This document shows, piece by piece, positions 4,210 to 14,762 of a DNA stretch of 64,000 nt. The position numbers were made by a program, and so were the translations under genes. The DNA lies in contig CAJYPV010000007.1 of NCBI GenBank assembly GCA_913776825.1, positions 186,001 through 250,000 on the forward strand. The letters are read 5' to 3'. The notes below the pieces were generated by a model. That model made no database searches, was not told the DNA's origin, and worked only from the letters and a program-made list of their open reading frames with translations. How positions within the stretch are numbered: the first letter of the stretch is position 1; each line of letters opens with the position of its first letter. The DNA is from Burkholderiaceae bacterium (GTDB taxonomy: Bacteria; Pseudomonadota; Gammaproteobacteria; Burkholderiales; Burkholderiaceae_C).

Positions 4210-5294
4210 GCGCGGCCTCCGGACGGCAGCATGGCTTCGATCTCGTCGGCCACGCGCGACGCCGCGCGCGGACGCGCCAGCGAGCGCGCCTTCACCGCAT
4301 AGCCCAGCCAGCGCTCGCGCGGCGATTGCAGCAGCGCATGCAGCGCTTCGGCAGTCAGCTCGCCTTGCGGCAGGTGCACGCCGGCCTCGTGCTGCGCCAT
4401 GTACTGGGCGTTGTCGCGCTGGTGCGAGGTGGTGCTCACCACCAGCGGCACCAGGATGCTGGCCACGCCGGCCGCGCAGAGTTCCGAGACGGTCACCGCG
4501 CCCGCGCGGCAGATCACCACGTCGGCATCGGCCAGCCGGGCGGCCATGTCGTGGATGAAGGGCAGCACCTCGGCCTGCACGCCGGCGCGCTCATAGGCGG
4601 CCTGCACCAGCGGGAAGTTGGCCTCGCCGGTCTGGTGCGTCACCTGCGGACGCTCGGCTTCGGGCCAGAGCGCCAGCGCCTGCGGCAACACCTCGTTGAT
4701 GGCCCGCGCGCCCAGCGAGCCGCCCACCACCAGCACCTTCAGCGGACCGCTGCGGCCTTCGAAGCGAAGTTCCGGCGCGGGCAGGTCTTCGATGTCGGCA
4801 CGCACCGGATTGCCGGTCACCACGCCCTTGCGCTGCTGGATCGCGGCCAGGCCGTCGAAGCCGAAAGCGATCTTGCGGGCCACCGGCGCGAGCGCCTTGT
4901 TGGACAGCAGCAGCGCCGCATCCGCATTCACCAGCAGCAGCGGGCGACGCATCAGCCAGGCCATCAGACCACCGGGCAGGCAGACATAGCCGCCCATGCC
5001 CAGAACCGCATCGGCCTTGCGCTCGCCCAGCACATGGGCGCTCTGGGCCAGCGCGCGGAACAGACGACCCACGCCCAGCACCGCATGCTTGAGGCCCTTG
5101 CCGCGCAGACCGGCGAAGGCCAGCCGGTCCAGCGGCAGGCCGGACGGCGGCACCAGCTTGTTTTCCATGCCGGCTTCGGTGCCCAGCCAGGACACCGTCC
5201 AGCCGCGACGCTGCATTTCCGCCGCGACCGCCAGGCCGGGAATCACATGGCCGCCGGTGCCGGCGGCCATCACCACGAGGTGGCGCGTGCTCAT
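4206..5294 (-). CDS. murG: UDP-GlcNAc:lipid I GlcNAc transferase MurG
   Basis: MurG adds GlcNAc to lipid I to make lipid II at the inner face of the membrane. The start chosen is the ATG at 5292-5294, which overlaps the ftsW stop as ATGA. The open frame continues 23 codons upstream into ftsW, but those codons have no support. The 362-residue product begins [20 protein letters not shown], carrying the glycine-rich donor loop, and has a second [11 protein letters not shown] loop (about residue 190) and the [12 protein letters not shown] segment with the Glu typical of GT28 glycosyltransferases. It lies between ftsW and murC, as in other proteobacterial dcw clusters. Confidence 0.96.
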
Positions 5295-6565
5295 GCCCGC
5301 CCTCCCCGCATCAACTGTCGGTTCTCGATATCGATTCGCAAAACAATCGCCAATGCCACGCAATTCAGGACCGTGGCCGAGCCGCCATAACTCATCAGCG
5401 GCAGGGTCAGGCCCTTGGTCGGAAGGGCGCCCAGGTTGACGCCCATGTTGATGAAGGCCTGGCCGCCCATCCAGATGCCGATGCCCTGCGCATACAGACC
5501 AGCGAAGACGCGGTCCAGCGCCACCGCCTGACGGCCGATGTGGAACAGGCGGCGCGACAGCCAGAAGAACGCGAAGATCACAATCGCCACGCCGATGAAG
5601 CCGAGTTCTTCGCCGATGACGGCGAGCAGGAAGTCGGTGTGCGCCTCGGGCAGGTAGTGCAGCTTTTCGAGACTGGATCCCAGCCCCTGGCCGAACAGTT
5701 CGCCGCGACCGAAGGCAATCAGCGAGTGGGTCAGCTGGTACGCCTTGCCCTGCGCATACTTCTCATCCCACGGATTGAGATACGCAAAGATCCGCTCGCG
5801 GCGGAAATCGCTGAAGGTGATCATCAGCACGAAGGCGCCGATCAGCACCGCCACGCTGAGGAAGAACATCCGACCGTTCACGCCGCCCAGGAACAGGATG
5901 CCCATCGCGATCGCGGCGATCACCATGAAGGCGCCCATGTCGGGCTCGGCCAGCAGCAGCACGCCGACGAAGGCAAGCGCGCAGGCCATCGGCCAGACCG
6001 CCTGGAAGAAGTTCTCCTTCTTCTCCATCTTGCGGACCATGTAGTTGGCCGCATACATCGCGATCGCCAGCTTGGCCAGTTCGGACGGCTGGAAGTTCAT
6101 CACGCCCAGCGGCAGCCAGCGCCGCGCGCCGTTGACGCCCTTGCCCACATGCGGAATGAGCACCACCACCAGCAGCACCAGCGCCGCCACGAAGATCTTG
6201 GGCGCATGACGCTCCCAGACATTCACCGGCACCATCACCGTGATCCAGCCGGCCAGCAGGCCGAGCAGGATGAAGGTGGACTGCCGGATGAAGAAATGCA
6301 TCGGCGCGTACTTGGCGAACTTGGGGTTGTCCGGCAGCGCGATAGACGCCGAATAGACCATCAACAGCCCGAGCGCCAGCAGGGACAGCACCACCCAGAC
6401 CAGCGTCAGGTCGAAGCCCAGGATGCGCGTGGGCTGGCCCGACGAGGTCGAGACCCAGTCCCGCACCGGCACGTCCACGCCGCCGGCGGCCGCGGCCTCG
6501 CGGCGCGACGTCAGCGCGCGCAGCCGGGTGCCGAGCTGGTCGAGGAAGCCGGTGATGGCGCTCAT
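5291..6565 (-). CDS. ftsW: SEDS peptidoglycan polymerase FtsW
   Basis: FtsW is the septal glycan polymerase that works with FtsI. The 424-residue protein has a soluble N-terminal tail of about 60 residues and then around ten membrane spans. Family signatures include [22 protein letters not shown], the [18 protein letters not shown] loop near residue 310, and a C-terminal [17 protein letters not shown]. The N-terminal tail ([20 protein letters not shown]) is longer than in E. coli, as is common in Burkholderiales. It overlaps murD by 4 bp and murG by 4 bp. Confidence 0.96.
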
Positions 6566-8754
6566 TCGATCAGCCCTTCGTCTTGCGCCAGCTCGCGCAC
6601 GGTGGCGACGAACACCTCGGCGCGATGCGCATAGTTGCGGAACATGTCCAGGCTGGCGCAGGCCGGGCTGAGCAGCACGCTGTCGCCCGATTGCGCTTGT
6701 GCCAGCGACCAGCGGGTGGCGTCCTCCAGCGAGTCATGGCGCTGCATCGGCACGCCGCTGCCTTGCAGCGCGGCTTCGATCTGCGGCGCATCCCGGCCGA
6801 TCAGGGCCACGGCGCGGGCATGCAGCGCGATCGGCGTGGCCAGCGGCGAGAAGTCCTGCCCCTTGCCGTCGCCCCCGAGGATCATCACCAGCTTGGCCGG
6901 CGCGCGGTCGACGCCCAGACCCAGCACCGCCGCGACCGTCGCGCCGACGTTGGTGCCCTTGGAGTCGTCATAGAAGTCCACGCCGCGCACGGTGCTGACG
7001 AATTCCACCCGATGCGGTTCGCCGCGGTATTCGCGCAGACCATGCAGCATCGGCGCCAGCGGGCAATCGATGGCGGTGGCCAGGGCCAGCGAGGCCAGCG
7101 CATTCGAGGCGTTGTGGCGGCCGCGCACGCGCAGCGCATCGGCCGGCATCAGGCGCTGGATGGACAGCGGCTCATCGTCCTCGCCCTTCTTGCGCTTGAG
7201 GCCCTTGAGTTCTTCTTCCTGCTCACGCGCGCGCACCAGCCAGGCCATGCCGTTCTCGACCATCAGGCCGAAATCGCCGGGCCGGCGCGGCGCGTCCAGG
7301 CCGAAACGCACGACCTCGCGCTCCACCAGCTTGCTGGGGCGGCCGCGACCTTGCTTGACCTGAATCGGTGCCGGCACCAGTGCCTCGACCTCGGCATCGT
7401 CGCGATTGATCACCATCACCGCCTGCTCGCCGAAGATGCGGCCCTTGGCGCGCGCATAGGCGGGCATGTCGCCATGCCAGTCCAGATGGTCCTGGGTGAT
7501 GTTCAGCACGGCGGCCGCGCTGGGCTCGAAGCCCTGCACACCCTCCAGCTGGAAGCTGGACAGCTCCAGCACCCAGACCTGCGGCAGCACCTCGAACTCC
7601 GGCGGCTTGGGCGGCGGAGGCTTGATCGGCAGCGGCGCTTCGTCCAGCAGCTCGGCCACGGTCTCCAGCGCGCTGCGCTCGGGGTCGGCCGGGATCGGCT
7701 CGGTCGGCGTGGGGCCTGCGGCGGTCGTGGCGCTCGCTTCGTCGACGACTGCCGGGCCGGTCGCGTCGGCGGCGTCGGTCGGCGTGTCGTCCGATGATTC
7801 CGTCGAGGCGTGCGGCGTGGCCTCATCGGACGCTTCCGCCGATGACGGCAGCGGCTCGATCGCCGCAGCAGCCTCAGCGTCAGGGGCGCTCGATGCCTCG
7901 GCCGAGTCCTTCACTGCATGCGCAGCCACCTCGGGCTCCACGGTTTCCTCAACGTCGGCGGCTTCGGTCGCATCGGTCGCATCGACGGACTCCACCGCGG
8001 TGGGCAAATCCACTCGCGCATGGGCGACAGTCGAGGCATCGGCCGCGATCGAGGTCGACGCCGCCGCAGTCCCCTCGCTCGGCGAGGTCGCCGCTTCGCC
8101 GTCGCCTGCTGCTTCGGCCGCCACGGGCTCGGACGAAGACAACGAAGCGCCCGCATCCCCCGCGGCTTCGGCGGGTTCGGCCGGTTCCAACGGCTCAGCC
8201 GCGTCGATCGCTTCCGGCGACACCGGCTGCGGCTCACGGTCCAGCGCATCGGACAGCGTGCCCAGCAGCGTCGGTCCGATGTTGCCGGCCATCGCCACGC
8301 GGCGACCAGCGCGCTCCACCAGCAAGGCGGTCATGCTGGTGGTGGTGGTCTTGCCGTTGGTGCCGGTGATGGCCAGCACGCCGGGCTCATAGCGGTAGCT
8401 CGTCTTCAACTGGGCCAGGGCCTGCGCGAACAGGTCCAGCTCGCCCTGCACCCGCAGGCCGCGCTCGGCGGCCCGCGCCAGCAGCGGCTGCAGACGGGTG
8501 TCGAGCGGCGACAGGCCGGGGCTCTTGAACAGCAGCGTGACATCGGCCAGGCGGGACGGCGACAGCTCGCCGTTCAGGAACTCCGCCTCCGGCAGTTGCT
8601 CGCGCAGCGCCGCCAGTTGCGGCGGCTGTTCGCGGCTGTCCCACACGGTGACGCGCGCACCCAGCCGCGCGACCCAGGCCGCCATCGCCAGGCCGGAGTC
8701 GCCCAACCCCAGCACCAAGGCGTGCTGTGACTGGAAGAGCGCGGGGAAGTCCAT
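6562..8754 (-). CDS. murD: UDP-MurNAc-L-Ala--D-Glu ligase MurD with large internal insertion
   Basis: MurD adds D-Glu to UDP-MurNAc-L-Ala in the cytoplasm. The conserved parts are clear: N-terminal [13 protein letters not shown]-loop [12 protein letters not shown] (residues 129-140), GNIGPTLL (157-164), [10 protein letters not shown] (395-404), [12 protein letters not shown], the [11 protein letters not shown] hinge, and C-terminal [11 protein letters not shown] and [11 protein letters not shown]. The odd part is length: 730 residues against roughly 450-500 for the family. The excess is an Ala/Glu/Asp/Ser/Pro-rich segment at about residues 172-385, plus a second charged insertion ([18 protein letters not shown]) before the hinge. 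The frame is unbroken and all catalytic motifs remain, so it is probably functional. It overlaps ftsW by 4 bp. Confidence 0.95.
7600..8241 (-). other. Low-complexity acidic insertion inside MurD
   Basis: This segment codes for about 215 residues made almost only of Ala, Glu, Asp, Ser, Thr, Pro and Val. It ends in a proline-rich patch ([16 protein letters not shown]) just before the [10 protein letters not shown] motif. It separates the GNIG loop, which follows the P-loop helix, from the next core strand of the ATP-binding domain, where E. coli MurD has only a short connection. It is in frame with no stop codon and should form a disordered surface loop. Confidence 0.85.
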
Positions 8755-8803: not shown

Positions 8804-9982
8804 TCACCGCAGCTTCAGGCTGGCCAGACCGACCAGGCACAGCAGCATGGTGATGATCCAGAACCGGACGACGACCTGCGTCTCCTTCCAGCCCGACTTC
8901 TCGAAATGGTGGTGCAAGGGCGCCATCTTGAAGATGCGCCGGCCCTCGCCGTATTTCTTCTTGGTGTACTTGAACCAGCTGACCTGCAGCATCACCGACA
9001 GCACTTCGGCGACGAACACGCCGCCCATGATGCCCAGCACGATTTCCTGGCGCGTGATCACCGCCAGCGTGCCGAGTCCACCGCCCAGCGCCAGGGCGCC
9101 CACATCGCCCATGAACACCTGGGCCGGATGGGTGTTGAACCACAGGAAGGCCAGACCGGCGCCCGCCAGCGCGGCGCAGAAGATCAGCAGTTCACCGGCG
9201 CCCGGGATGTAGGGCAGCAGCAGATAGCGGCTGAACACCGAGGAGCCGGTCAGGTAGGCGAACACGCCCAGCGCCGAGCCCACCATCACCACCGGCATGA
9301 TGGCCAGGCCATCGAGGCCGTCGGTGAAGTTGACCGCGTTGCTGGTGCCGACGATGACCAGATAGGACAGGCCGATGAAGCCGAACACGCCCAGCGGATA
9401 GCTGACCGCCTTGAAGAACGGCAGCAGCAGGTCGGCCCGAGGTGGCAGTTCGGTGGAGAAGCCGCTGGACACCCAGCGGAAGAACAGTTGCACCACGCCG
9501 AAGAAGCTGGTCTCGGACACGCTGAAGGCCAGGTACAGCGCGGCGATCAGGCCGATCAGCGACTGCCAGAAGAATTTCTCGCGGCTGCGCATGCCCTCCG
9601 GATCCTTGTTGACGACCTTGCGGTAGTCGTCGACCCAGCCGATGGCGCCGAAACCCATGGTCACCAGCATCACCACCCAGACGAAACGGTTGGCCCAGTC
9701 GAACCACAGCAGCGTCGACACGCCGATGGCGATCAGGATCAGCACGCCGCCCATGGTCGGCGTGCCGCTCTTGGACAGATGCTGCTGCACGCCGTATTCA
9801 CGGATGGGCTGGCCGATCTTCATCTCGGTCAGGCGACGGATCACCCACGGGCCGAAGGCCAGGCCGATCAGCAGCGCGGTCAGCGCGGCCATCACCGCAC
9901 GGAAGGTGATGTAGCTGAAGACGCGGAGAAAACCCAGGTCGGGAAAATTGGCCTGCAGCCATTGGGCCAGACTAAGCAGCAT
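8804..9982 (-). CDS. mraY: Phospho-MurNAc-pentapeptide translocase MraY
   Basis: MraY transfers phospho-MurNAc-pentapeptide to undecaprenyl phosphate, making lipid I in the membrane. The 392-residue polytopic protein has the diagnostic motifs: [13 protein letters not shown] (around residue 70), DDYRKV (around 118), [13 protein letters not shown] (around 215), [17 protein letters not shown] (around 290) and the histidine-rich [14 protein letters not shown] near the C-terminus. It overlaps the end of murF by 11 bp. A 49-bp gap to murD is the largest spacing in this part of the operon. Confidence 0.97.
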
Positions 9983-11444
9983 GGGTTCCTCCTGCGCCGC
10001 CAGACTGCAAGGCGGCCACGATCTGTTCCATCTTCATGAAGCGCGAACCCTTGACCAGGATGTTCTGCACTTGGGGGGCCGCGTCGAGCGCGGCGATGAG
10101 GTCGGCGACGGTGTCGAAGGCCCGAGCGCCGCTGCCAAAGGCGGCGGCCGATTCGCGCGCCGCCGAGCCCGCTGTCCACAGCGCGGCCAGACGCTGATCG
10201 GCCGCATGGGCGCCGACCTCACGGTGGAAGGCCGGGCCTTGATCGCCGACCTCGCCCATGTCGCCCAGCACCAGCCAGGAGCTGCCCGGCAGTTCGGCCA
10301 GGACATCGATGGCGGCGCGCACGCTGTCGGGATTGGCGTTGTAGCTGTCGTCGATCAGGGTGATGCGGCGACCTTGCCAGACCGCCGTCTGCAAGGCGGA
10401 GCGGCCCTTCACCGCCTTGAACGCCTGCAGGCCTTCGCGAATCGCCACCAGCGGCGCGCCCGCGGCCAGCGTGCAGGCGGCAGCGGCCAGCGCATTGCGC
10501 ACGTTGTGCTGACCGGCCATCGCGAGCGCCACCGGCACCGAGCCAGCCGGCGTCAGGATTTCCAGCGCCCAGTGACCGGCAGCGCCCGCGCCGGTCGCCA
10601 CGGGGCCGGCGTCATCACCGGGCGCGATCCATTGGGCACGGCCCATCACATCGGCCTGACCCTGCAGGGCAAAGGTGAGCGTGCCGCGACCGGCCGCCAG
10701 CGATTGCCAGACGGGCGCGCAGCCATCCTCGGCCGGGAAGACCGCCACGCCGGCAGGATCGAGCGCCTCGATCACCGCGCCGTTCTCGCGGGCCACCGCT
10801 TCCACCGTGTGCATGAATTCCTGATGCTCACGCTGGGCGTTGTTGACCAGCGCCACGCCCGGTTGGGTCATCGCGGCCAAGGGCGCGATTTCGCCGGGAT
10901 GGTTCATGCCCAGCTCGATCACGGCAGCGCGGTGCCAGACGGATTCGTTCTGACGCAGGCGCAGCAGCGTGAGCGGCACGCCGATCTCGTTGTTGAGGTT
11001 GCCTTCGGTGGCAAGCATCGCTGCGTCGCCCAGCCAGGCGCGCAGGATGGCGGCGATCATCTGCGTGACCGTCGTCTTGCCATTGCTGCCGGTGACGGCG
11101 ATCACCGGCAGATGGTGCTGGGCGCGCCAGGCTTGCGACAGCAGGCCGAGCGCCTGCTTCGCGTCCGGCACCAGCAGGCCGGGCAGGCCGGCTTCGCTCA
11201 GGCCGCGTTCCGCCAGCGCGGCTGCGGCGCCCGCGGCCTTGGCTTGCGCCAGAAAGTCGTTCGCATCGAAACGCTCGCCCCGCAGCGCGACGAACAGGTC
11301 GCCCGCGCGCAGGCTGCGGGTGTCGGTGTGCACGCGCGACAGCGGCGTGGCGGGATCACCCACCAGCGTCGTCGCCGGCAGCCAGGGCTGCAGCAGCGCG
11401 TGGGCCTGGCCCAGCGTCATCATCGGCAGCACGGTCTCGCTCAC
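9972..11444 (-). CDS. murF: UDP-MurNAc-tripeptide--D-Ala-D-Ala ligase
   Basis: MurF adds the D-Ala-D-Ala dipeptide to complete the UDP-MurNAc-pentapeptide. The 490 residues show the N-terminal [14 protein letters not shown] motif, the P-loop [14 protein letters not shown] (GSNGKT at 119-124), [13 protein letters not shown], the [13 protein letters not shown] hinge and [15 protein letters not shown], which is specific to MurF. It overlaps murE by 4 bp and mraY by 11 bp. Confidence 0.97.
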
Positions 11445-12973
11445 AGGCCGGCCCTCTCGATCAGGGCCGCACGCGCGGCTTGCACATCGGAGAAGGCGCG
11501 GCGTTCGCCGGCGATCTCCTGATAGTCCTCATGGCCCTTGCCGGCGATCAGCACGACATCGCGTGCACCCGCCTCGGTGACGGCCTGGTCGATGGCCTGC
11601 GCCCGGTCGACGATGACCTGACGCACCGAGGCGGCCGGCAGGCCGGCTTCGATGTCGGCCAGGATGCGGCTGGGATCTTCATGACGCGGGTTGTCGCTGG
11701 TCAGCACCACGCGGGTGGCCAGTCGCGCGGCGATCGCGCCCATCAGCGGACGCTTGCCCGGATCGCGGTTGCCGCCACATCCGAAGACCACCCGCAGCTC
11801 GCCGCCGCGCGCCTGCGCCAGCGGTTGCAGCGCGGACAGCGCCTTCTCCAGCGCATCCGGCGTGTGGGCATAGTCGACCACCACCTGCGGCAGCTCGCGG
11901 CCATTGCCGACGCGCTGCATGCGGCCGGGCACCGGCGTGACGAGCGCGGCGACGCGTGCGATGTCCTCCAGCGAATGGCCCAGCGCCCGCAGGCCGGCGA
12001 TGACGCCCAGCAGGTTCGAGACGTTGTAGTCGCCGATCAGGCCGGTCTGGACCGGCACCGCGTGCGCGGCTTCGCGCAGGGTGAACGCCAGGCCCTGGGC
12101 GTCATGACGCAGGTCTTCGGCCCAGAGGCGGGCATCGGTGCGGTTCAGGCCGTAGGTCCAGAGATCCAGCGCCTGGCCGTTGACCGGCGGCTGCGCCGCG
12201 AGTTCAGCGGCCAGCGAGACGCCCTTCTCGTCATCCAGATTGAGCACCGCCGCCTGCAGGCCTTGCCAGGCGAACAGCTTGCGCTTGGCGGCCCAGTAGG
12301 CGGCCATGTCGCCGTGATAGTCCAGATGGTCCTGGGTGAAATTCGTGAACAGCGCCACCTTGATCTGGGTGCCGCTGAGCCGGTGTTCTTCCACGCCGAT
12401 GGACGAGGCTTCGATCGCGCAGGCGGCATAGCCGTCATCGGCCATGCGCTTGAAAGCTTCCTGCAGACGGACCGGATCCGGCGTGGTCAGGCCGGTGGCT
12501 TCGATGGAGGCGCTGGTGCCCGCCGGTGCGCCGGGCACCGGAGGCTGGCCGACGCCCAAGGTGCCGATCACGCCGCAGCGAGCGCCGAGCAGCGTCAGCG
12601 CCTGGGCGATCCACCAGGCGCTGGAGGTCTTGCCGTTGGTGCCGGTGACGGCCAGCACATCCAGCCGAGCGCTCGGATGGCCGTAGAAGGCAGCAGCGAT
12701 CTGGCCGCAGCGCGCCTTCAGGTCGGGCAGCGCCGCGATGCGGGCATCGACGAAACCGAAGGCGGCCACGCCCTGGTCCTCGACCAGGCAGGTCGCCGCG
12801 CCGGCGGCCAGCGCGCCCGCGACGAACTGGCGCGCATCCTTGGCATAGCCGGGCCAGGCGATGAAGGCATCGCCAGGGCCGACCGCGCGGCTGTCGGTGC
12901 GCAGCAGGCCGCTGGGCGTCCATTCCTGCAGCCAGCGGGCAGCGGCTTCGGGGGATTTCAGGTGCATCAACAT
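11441..12973 (-). CDS. murE: UDP-MurNAc-L-Ala-D-Glu--meso-DAP ligase
   Basis: MurE adds the third stem-peptide residue. The P-loop is VTGTNGKTSSAWW (GTNGKT at 111-116), the DTRAVGPGDAFIAWPG-like segment reads DSRAVGPGDAFIAWPG, and the motif SDNPRHEDP (DNPR) marks the meso-diaminopimelate-using type. The ATG at 12971-12973 is chosen: it lies just after the ftsI stop (12987-12989). A longer frame would start 50 codons inside ftsI and shows no family similarity there. A second ATG two codons later is also possible. The product of 510 residues is a usual length. It overlaps murF by 4 bp. Confidence 0.95.
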   Translation of the reverse strand: MLMHLKSPEAAARWLQEWTPSGLLRTDSRAVGPGDAFIAWPGYAKDARQFVAGALAAGAATCLVEDQGVAAFGFVDARIAALPDLKARCGQIAAAFYGHPSARLDVLAVTGTNGKTSSAWWIAQALTLLGARCGVIGTLGVGQPPVPGAPAGTSASIEATGLTTPDPVRLQEAFKRMADDGYAACAIEASSIGVEEHRLSGTQIKVALFTNFTQDHLDYHGDMAAYWAAKRKLFAWQGLQAAVLNLDDEKGVSLAAELAAQPPVNGQALDLWTYGLNRTDARLWAEDLRHDAQGLAFTLREAAHAVPVQTGLIGDYNVSNLLGVIAGLRALGHSLEDIARVAALVTPVPGRMQRVGNGRELPQVVVDYAHTPDALEKALSALQPLAQARGGELRVVFGCGGNRDPGKRPLMGAIAARLATRVVLTSDNPRHEDPSRILADIEAGLPAASVRQVIVDRAQAIDQAVTEAGARDVVLIAGKGHEDYQEIAGERRAFSDVQAARAALIERAGL

Positions 12974-12986
12974 GAGGGTTGCCCGC

Positions 12987-14762
12987 TTAAAAACTCTCGT
13001 CCACGGCCTGCAGCTTTTGCGAGGCGACGATCTGGGGCTTGACCTCCAGATCCGGCGCCTCGCCGAGCAGCCGCAGTGTCTGCGCCACGACCTGGCTGAA
13101 CACCGGGCCGGCGACCGCGCCACCGAAATACTGGCCGTTCTTGGGCTCGTCCACCATCACCGCGACGATGATGCGCGGCTTGGAGATCGGCGCGATGCCG
13201 ACGAACCAGGACCGGTACTTGTTGCTCGCGTAGCCCTTGCCTTCCTGCTTGTGCGCCGTGCCGGACTTTCCGCCGACGCTGTAGCCCGGCACCATCGCCT
13301 GCGGCGCGGTGCCGCCGGGGCCGGCCGCCATCTGCAGCATCTCGCGGATGATCGCTGCGGTCTTGGGCGAGAACACCTTGATGCCGGCGACCGGTTCATC
13401 CGGACCGCGCTTGGTCATGGTGATCGGGATGATGTCGCCATCGCGAGCGAACACGGTGTAGGCGCGCGCCAGCTGCAGCAGCGATGCGGACAGGCCGTAG
13501 CCGTAGCTCATCGTCGCCTGCTCGATCGGACGCCAGCTCTTGTAGGGACGCAGCTTGCCGGTCACCGCGCCGGGGAAATTGATCTGCGGGCGCTGACCCA
13601 GACCGATCGCGGTGAACATCTCATGCATTTCGCGCGGCTGCATCATCAGCGCCAGCCGGGCCGCGCCGATGTTGCTGGACTTCTGGATCACCTGCGCCAC
13701 GGTCAGGTCGCCGTGGGGATGGGAATCGGTGGGCGACCAGCCGGAGATCACCACGCTGCGCGGGCCGGTGCTGAGCACGGTGTCCGGCTTCACCCGGCCG
13801 GTTTCCAGCGCGAGTCCCGCGGTGAACGGCTTCATCGTCGAGCCCGGCTCGAACACATCGGTCAGCGCGCGGTTGCGCAGTTGCTCGCCGGAGAGGTTCT
13901 TGCGATGGCCGGGGTCGTAGCTCGGGAAGTTGGCCAGCGCCAGCACTTCGCCGGTGTGCACATCCAGCACCACGACCGAGCCCGCCTTGGCCTTGTTCTC
14001 CGCCACGGCATCGCGCACGCGTTGATAGGCGAAGAACTGCACCTTCGCATCGATCGAGAGCTCGATGTCACGGCCATTGGCTGCGGGCACCCGCTCGCCC
14101 ATGTCTTCCACCACACGGCCGAGACGGTCGCGCACCACCGAGCGGCTGCCATCGCGGCCCTGCAGTTCCTTCTGGAACGCCAGCTCGATGCCTTCCTGGC
14201 CCTGCTCCTCGATGTTGGTGAAGCCCACGATGTGCGCGGCGGACTCGCCTTCCGGGTACTGCCGCTTGTATTCGCGGTCCTGGAAGACGCCCTTGAGGTT
14301 GAGCTCCTTGATCTTGGCCGCGGTCTGGTCATCCGCCTGGCGGCGCAGGAAGACGAAGCGATTGGACGGGTCCAGGCGCTTGTCGAGCTCGCTCGGCGAC
14401 ATGTCCAGCAGCTTGGCCAACTGGCGGCGCTTCACCGGGTCGGTGTCGACCTCTTTGGGGAAGGCCCAGATCGACGGCACGGCGACGCTGGCGGCCAGCA
14501 CCTGGCCGCCGCGATCGCTGATCTTGCCGCGGCTGGCGGGCAATTCCATCTTGTGGGCATAGCGGGCCTCGCCCTGGCGCTGGAAGAAGTCCTCGCCGAT
14601 GAGCTGGATGTAGGCGGCGCGGCCCAGCAGGCCGGCGAAGGCCAGCCCGACCAACGCGACCAGGAAGCGCGAGCGCCACGGCGGCGTCTTGGACGCGAGC
14701 AGCGGGCTGCTCGAGTAGCTGACGCTGCGCGAGGCATTGAGCGTGCGCTTGCGGCCGATCAT
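12987..14762 (-). CDS. ftsI: Septal peptidoglycan transpeptidase FtsI (PBP3)
   Basis: FtsI is the class B penicillin-binding protein that cross-links septal peptidoglycan with FtsW. The 591-residue protein has a cytoplasmic basic N-terminus, one membrane span at about 32-52, and a pedestal domain with ASRGKISDRGG. The transpeptidase domain has active-site triads S308-T-M-K311 (EPGSTMKPF), S362-S-N364 and K497-S-G-T500. Its 4-bp overlap with ftsL and place before murE are canonical. Confidence 0.97.
   Translation of the reverse strand: MIGRKRTLNASRSVSYSSSPLLASKTPPWRSRFLVALVGLAFAGLLGRAAYIQLIGEDFFQRQGEARYAHKMELPASRGKISDRGGQVLAASVAVPSIWAFPKEVDTDPVKRRQLAKLLDMSPSELDKRLDPSNRFVFLRRQADDQTAAKIKELNLKGVFQDREYKRQYPEGESAAHIVGFTNIEEQGQEGIELAFQKELQGRDGSRSVVRDRLGRVVEDMGERVPAANGRDIELSIDAKVQFFAYQRVRDAVAENKAKAGSVVVLDVHTGEVLALANFPSYDPGHRKNLSGEQLRNRALTDVFEPGSTMKPFTAGLALETGRVKPDTVLSTGPRSVVISGWSPTDSHPHGDLTVAQVIQKSSNIGAARLALMMQPREMHEMFTAIGLGQRPQINFPGAVTGKLRPYKSWRPIEQATMSYGYGLSASLLQLARAYTVFARDGDIIPITMTKRGPDEPVAGIKVFSPKTAAIIREMLQMAAGPGGTAPQAMVPGYSVGGKSGTAHKQEGKGYASNKYRSWFVGIAPISKPRIIVAVMVDEPKNGQYFGGAVAGPVFSQVVAQTLRLLGEAPDLEVKPQIVASQKLQAVDESF

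Follow-up and report, generated by a model that had tools for sequence, protein, structure and literature searches.

The window, i.e., the whole stretch of 64,000 nucleotides that was analysed, encodes a MurD that is intact apart from a long acidic, disordered insertion in its ATP domain, and related MurDs bear acidic arms at this point or at one of two others. The reading that we favour, at a probability of roughly 45%, is that of a working MurD with a flexible acidic docking or tethering arm for a putative partner.

The protein passes the curated cut-off of the NCBIfam MurD equivalog TIGR01087 (341.5 bits versus 211.95), is the only protein of its own genome above this cut-off among the matches listed, and matches the Pfam families PF21799 (MurD-like_N), PF08245 (Mur_ligase_M), and PF02875 (Mur_ligase_C); by this standard it is a MurD, and the ligase activity that adds D-Glu onto UDP-MurNAc-L-Ala is predicted from its sequence. 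The initial annotation had described an unbroken frame with complete catalytic motifs, and this holds, as the frame is open throughout and the P-loop, the Glu of LELSSFQ, the His of DHLDWH, the Lys of YARAK, and the DSK of DDSKGTN are all present. G131, N133 to K135, E397, H423, K437, and D597 to K599 are invariant in the 43-row alignment A2, as are S399, S400, F401, and Q402 of LELSSFQ, and the E, H, and K of LELSSFQ, DHLDWH, and YARAK are presumably the residues with catalytic roles. Solved MurDs (TIGR01087; 7sy9, 8dp2, 1uag, 2jfg) share with the window MurD the three-domain fold and the motifs GTNGK, LELSSFQ, and DDSKGTN, and the position between mraY and ftsW is alike in known MurD; the difference is that the window MurD has 220 residues without counterpart in the P. 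aeruginosa enzyme, inserted between positions 156 and 157 of the latter (residues 171 and 392 align to 156 and 157 of 7sy9). An AlphaFold2 model of the single chain, with 42 relatives in the alignment, confirmed the MurD fold (TM 0.92 to 8dp2 by target length), and the best 33 Foldseek matches were all solved MurDs. The positions of the features are listed in Table 1. As to the murE of the window, most relatives match its longest frame only from about residue 50, so that the true start probably lies near 12973.

Table 1. Features of the murD region in the window (residue numbers are those of the window MurD).
Feature	Position	Strand	Residues	Remarks
murD	6562-8754	minus	730 aa	open frame, with insertion; dcw cluster, between mraY and ftsW
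mraY	8804-9982			murD neighbour in dcw cluster
ftsW	5291-6565			murD neighbour in dcw cluster
Longest murE frame	11441-13123	minus		starts at GTG inside ftsI
Site 2 position	8392-8406	minus	117-121	used by relatives; no insert in the window MurD
P-loop GTNGK	8350-8364	minus	131-135	
Site-1 insertion	7582-8241	minus	172-391	220 residues by structure alignment, 214 over commonest family loop length
N-terminal end of insertion, DREPQP	8224-8241	minus	172-177	ALDxEP-like pattern
Disordered acidic middle	7711-8163	minus	198-348	pLDDT <50; aligns poorly among most genus members
Predicted helix	7645-7683	minus	358-370	AlphaFold2 model
Proline-rich base of insertion	7582-7644	minus	371-391	mean pLDDT 81 (371-380), 91 (381-390)
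LELSSFQ, strand end and motif	7549-7569	minus	396-402	shortly past insertion
Charged hairpin	7165-7224	minus	511-530	with basic cluster

The insertion point, which we call site 1, is in the ATP domain, after the GNIG helix and before the VLELSSFQL strand. The initial annotation had given the insertion as 7600-8241, which corresponds to residues 172-385; measured as the span of this loop, the window MurD has 263 residues versus a commonest family span of 49, an excess of 214. Ala, Glu, Asp, Pro, Ser, and Thr abound in the insertion, and Lys and Arg are nearly absent (over 217 residues, D+E 22%, K+R 3%, A 25%, P 13%, net charge −42), and its description as acidic and disordered with a proline-rich end is confirmed by this composition, by the pLDDT below 50 at residues 198-348, and by the PLPI.P base. 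The inserts of the 16 genus members have 18-28% D+E and 2-6% K+R in the coding frame and a net charge of −17 to −47. In the two other sense frames of these inserts, D+E does not exceed 10% and K+R is 16-45%, one antisense frame has 1-7% K+R and only 0-8% D+E, and D+E stays at or below 15% in the non-coding frames of the insert DNA of all 16 members. Because the other frames of the same DNA are less acidic, the acidity is a property of the protein frame. When open frames of at least 100 residues were scanned in all six frames, no such acidic stretch was found in the window besides that of MurD, and in 40 dcw regions of about 20 kb each, such stretches occurred in 25 MurD frames and in five other open frames that look like wrong frames. 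An overlapping antisense gene (open plus-strand frames 7466-8392 and others) was considered and set aside: the codons of D, E, A, V, and G, which make up 57% of the residues, begin with G, their antisense codons end in C and are therefore never stops, and an open antisense frame is thus expected.

In the model, the MurD core has pLDDT values mostly above 90, the low-complexity middle of the insertion is the low-confidence stretch, and the chain regains order through the helix and the base, with means per ten residues of 66, 79, 81, 91, and 97 from residue 351 on. In the model of Aquabacterium lacunae MurD, pLDDT falls below 50 for residues 189-218 only. Site 1 and a second insertion point of relatives, site 2 (past the final helix of the N-terminal domain and ahead of the strand toward the P-loop), come before strands 393-397 and 125-130, respectively, and the far ends of these strands enter LELSSFQ and GTNGK. 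In the usual topology of such sheets, the near strand ends would lie opposite the nucleotide.

The insertion is not confined to the window. All 16 genus genomes covered have a homologous site-1 insertion, with spans of 136-316 (87-267 extra residues over the commonest 49), and the possibility of an assembly artefact, which the initial annotation had raised, was thereby settled in favour of a real insertion. A survey was drawn from 140 genomes of the family, about one per genus, of which 138 matched and 137 were measured, partial MurDs from incomplete genomes included; one (G107) was excluded because its match begins at a contig end. The span was 49 in 72 rows, at least 70 in 48, and at other values between 47 and 67 in 17. 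At least 21 extra residues at site 1 are therefore found in 48/137 family MurDs, and the earlier statement that so much extra length is rarely tolerated at a core site is not supported for this family. Seven of the 137 rows have no recognisable start and are absent from the tree and the site-2 count (n=130), and six could not be measured N-terminally (n=131). One clade of the MurD core tree (SH-aLRT 99) has site-1 inserts in 38 of its 51 rows, eight rows elsewhere bear them too, and some insert-bearing rows adjoin insert-free sisters (L189, L226). The site-1 label requires 19 changes on this quick tree, in which many branches are weak (19 of 127 inner branches starred, 55 open) and change counts cannot separate gain from loss; the starred branches force just three changes between site-1 and site-2 rows.

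The two ends of the insertion recur among relatives. The ALDxEP-like pattern of the N-terminal end is found in 16/16 genus members and in 28 of the 48 insert-bearing survey rows. At the other end, the helix followed by PLPI[KD]PP is present in 16/16 genus members and in 13/48 site-1 survey rows (two of them from the window's genus), the helix plus the PLPIKPPPP ending of window-type arms is kept in all 16 members and in 11 other genera, and PLPI.P occurs in 16/16 genus members and 16/48 survey rows, with a looser proline pattern in 32/48. Thirty-one named loci, taken from a list of at least 80, were read, with site-1 spans of 120 in Aquabacterium lacunae (L032), 115 in Azohydromonas australica (L034), 55 and 51 in two Rubrivivax MAGs, 57 in Pseudoduganella umbonata, and 49 in Comamonas granuli, Delftia acidovorans, and the Burkholderia, Paraburkholderia, and Massilia records. 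A draw from the order (70 genomes, 68 of them from other families) gave 60 with a MurD profile match in one nearly complete piece, and most of the broken or long MurDs were read (10 of 11 loci readable, one from the window's own family and outside the draw). Among those read, the MurDs of G037, G044, and G188 have about 25-40 extra residues at site 1, and those of G196 and G219 have some at site 2. A long Ala/Pro-rich insert after the NRADG strand, distinct from sites 1 and 2, was seen in a MurD from another family of the order (L293 of G210).

The initial annotation had also named a second, smaller charged insertion before the hinge. The stretch exists, at residues 511-530, and it is a common hairpin of related MurDs: as 31 of the 32 Burkholderiales-like rows of A2 have a comparable stretch (the exception, L048, is shortened) and none of the 11 other rows has one, it is not a second local insertion. 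The MurDs of G188, G196, and G219, from other families of the same GTDB order, are without it.

Arms also occur at two further points of family MurDs. Inserts at site 2 are present in 14/130 rows, with lengths of 14-207 residues, two of the 14 being merely 14-15 residues above the baseline, and none of these rows has a site-1 insert; L223, whose extra residues lie elsewhere, was not scored. Net charge is negative in 48/48 site-1 and 14/14 site-2 inserts, in some of the latter only by 3 to 5, and many site-2 inserts end proline-rich and resemble site 1 by eye, e.g., DDDDGSLPPIAPPPVETGYRP beside DDAPLQLAPPPPAAPVF. The third point is the N-terminus, whose length was taken from the first in-frame ATG or GTG past the mraY end to the GxGxSG motif: 20/131 rows have at least 40 residues there, versus 12 in most arm-free rows, and the window's genus, with 15-20, has no N-terminal arm. 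In 18 of these 20 rows, there is a four-base overlap between the mraY stop and the predicted start of murD, as in translational coupling (e.g., L022, L024, L172, L238). Sixteen of the 20 N-terminal arms are 78-195 residues long and contain a helix motif at about residue −180 relative to the P-loop (AAxxAAxFVAxI by pattern in 15, a variant in L210 by eye), and the other four, of 41-56 residues (L203, L220, L235, L248), lack the motif. Named bearers of N-terminal arms (96-161 residues) are Comamonas granuli (L033), Delftia acidovorans (L036), a Polaromonas MAG (L038), a Rhodoferax MAG (L041), and a Burkholderiaceae MAG (L037). The MurD of L303 (G062) has an N-terminal arm and an extra stretch directly after DHLDWHG.

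The same motif, AAxxAAxFVAxI, is found inside the site-2 arms of L173 and L186 (AAREAAEFVARI, AAREAAAFVATI), about 54 residues before the P-loop, and in L180, which the tree places as their sister (support 89, not starred), it is N-terminal (AARDAAEFVAQV). In about 1.03 million residues of six-frame open frames from the window and the 40 dcw regions, the pattern matched MurD nine times and nothing else, and genome searches with the motif region gave one match each in L036 and L033, the identical match in L036 being taken as MurD itself. The simplest reading is that the motif at the two attachment points has a common origin and moved between them. Most armed enzymes bear a single arm: the 131 rows comprise 52 without an arm, 46 with site 1, 19 with an N-terminal arm, 13 with site 2, and only one (L248) with two, N-terminal plus site 2, whose N-terminal extension is among those without the motif. 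Among the 79 rows that do not belong to the main clade (19 N-terminal, 14 site 2, 8 site 1), about 6.7 doubles would be expected if the arms were independent and one was seen, a scarcity that is suggestive only, as kinship is ignored in it; the same applies to the mutual exclusion of sites 1 and 2 (Fisher p 0.002, 130 rows, kinship ignored).

The central parts of the arms diverge rapidly and remain acidic, whereas a short helix is conserved, as is the proline-rich base in site-1 arms. Over 120 genus pairs, with most alignments of the middle unreliable, the median pN is 0.41 for the middle versus 0.15 for the last 40 residues of the insertion and 0.12 and 0.07 for two parts of the core; together with the motif counts, this points to a short motif kept above its surroundings. 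We favour docking or tethering over passive growth because the arms are acidic, occur mostly one per enzyme and at three points, and have kept motifs, one of them at two points. The arm would emerge from the ATP domain as a loop that joins the GNIG helix to the LELSSFQ strand; both loops sit at the start of strands running into the active site and hence probably on the opposite face, so that an arm there would leave catalysis undisturbed. The kept helix and base may serve to attach MurD to another protein, or to a second MurD surface, with the acidic chain as a soluble, non-sticky spacer. For the window MurD, this reading draws on its own kept helix and base and, by analogy, on its relatives. 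Our first guess for the putative partner is MurG or another peptidoglycan enzyme, and MurG has been reported to bind MurD in Thermotoga (PMC6420597).

Several observations speak against docking. The initial suggestion that the loop could bind another protein gained weight from the arms at other points and their shared helix motif, but this motif is not that of the window, and the likeness between the two (VA, two hydrophobic residues, acids) was seen by eye only. Two of the site-2 inserts are small, and the four shortest N-terminal extensions have no helix motif. The window-type helix motif is present in just 13/48 site-1 arms, the base is predicted to be ordered in the single chain, which would also fit packing on MurD itself, the arm is absent from 52/131 rows and thus dispensable in the family, and palindromic repeats in two arms together with the unalignable middles fit passive growth. 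When 20 regions were compared with another 20 (for some proteins, 19 could be measured), the median lengths of eight further dcw proteins differed by at most 18.5 residues, and no correlated change was seen. This grouping is imperfect: G130 (span 58) is in the first group, and the second includes a region from another family, a site-2 arm, and N-terminal arms. Of the 20 regions in each group, 18 of the first and 7 of the second have a MurD frame with an acidic stretch. Individual proteins do differ in length, with MurE spans ranging from 466 to 567 across the dcw regions, and the BLAST spans of MurD are shortened in some rows of this comparison.

Bordetella, which belongs to the same order as the window bacterium, offers a known case of altered Mur ligase architecture. 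Its MurE-MurF fusion and MurG scaffold (PMC6420597) resembles the window MurD in that the change is proposed to help a Mur complex, and it differs in that two enzymes are joined by a linker of about 20 residues, whereas the window MurD has a disordered arm on one enzyme and a putative partner. Among the matches listed in a literature search with most subscription journals outside its range, there was no description of such a MurD insertion.

The main rival of the docking reading, to which we give about a third of our credence, is a tolerated acidic bristle: on the side of MurD that faces away from the active site, permissive points would expand repeatedly, and selection would only keep the chain free of basic residues, and hence soluble, and the base ordered so that the next strand folds, with no partner needed. 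The 19 changes of the site-1 label and the widely varying lengths agree with such tolerated growth, as does the conserved base, which is predicted to be ordered in a single chain and follows the same course in Aquabacterium lacunae MurD. In three species whose middles align well (L009, L011, L012; three non-independent pairs), the dN/dS of the middle is 0.10-0.34 versus 0.02-0.08 for the C-terminal core, which this explanation would also accommodate. However, it requires neither one helix motif at two attachment points nor nearly always one arm per enzyme.

Neutral drift, in which in-frame DNA lands or slips at loops and ends and only the intact fold is selected, appears improbable to us. It would suit pairs such as L002/L003, L007/L013, and L002/L004, whose C-terminal cores are 97-98% identical with middles only 34-44% identical, the 13 of 51 main-clade rows with little or no insert, and the third-position GC, which is lower in the insertion middle than in the N-terminal core in 20/20 rows. 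In-frame repeats are seen in relatives as well: the site-1 insert of G113 (L137, 2509-2625) is a palindromic repeat with 26 match rows at 15 genome places including murD, the site-2 insert of G148 (L191, 1144-1332) contains a dispersed repeat with at least 58 match rows (40 of 79 candidates scored), and repeat-like peptides were noted by eye at site 1 of L140, L149, L150, and G188 and at site 2 of G196 and G219. In-frame palindromic elements in coding genes are known from Rickettsia (PMC10969869), and the inserts of G113 and G148 are alike in being in-frame dispersed palindromic repeats; the window insertion is unlike them, as no repeat family was found for it among the 40 of 190 candidates scored (four other matches of at most 69 bases, best E 3.4e-5). 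A search for other genome copies of its last 41 residues gave one weak match (E 0.066) in an open frame, which was set aside by eye. Drift is contradicted by the net negative charge of 62/62 site-1 and site-2 inserts, an acidity that does not come from other frames, by a dN/dS below 1 where measurable, by the kept motifs, and by the other ORFs of the window, which have no such stretch.

A regulatory surface, also considered in the initial annotation, would mean that the acidic arm folds onto the basic cluster of the hairpin or onto the domain interface and modulates how the enzyme opens and closes. The C-terminal domain of MurD rotates as the enzyme works (PMC4816537), and the basic cluster is present in the hairpin of most Burkholderiales-like rows of A2, but the hairpin is found in arm-free MurDs as well, and we regard such self-regulation as very improbable. 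An assembly or frame artefact, finally, has practically no probability left and was rejected, as nothing was found in its support and the homologous insertions of the 16 genus genomes contain no stop and differ in length between separate assemblies.

Returning to the docking or tethering arm, a wider version, which we consider rather doubtful as a whole, is that the MurD of this family bears a single movable recruitment arm, made of an acidic spacer and a short docking helix. Its attachment point would be the N-terminus or one of the two loops behind the active site, and evolution could transfer it from one of these points to another. The arm would place MurD, as the second Mur ligase, within the assembly line of peptidoglycan precursors, and palindromic repeat DNA would have supplied part of the arm's length. 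In any case, the ATP domain of an essential and much-studied drug target accommodates as many as 267 extra residues, and the three predictable points at which relatives bear arms lend themselves to the tagging of MurD. Should the kept helix dock a partner, deleting the helix would directly test whether the long-suspected complex of Mur enzymes exists.
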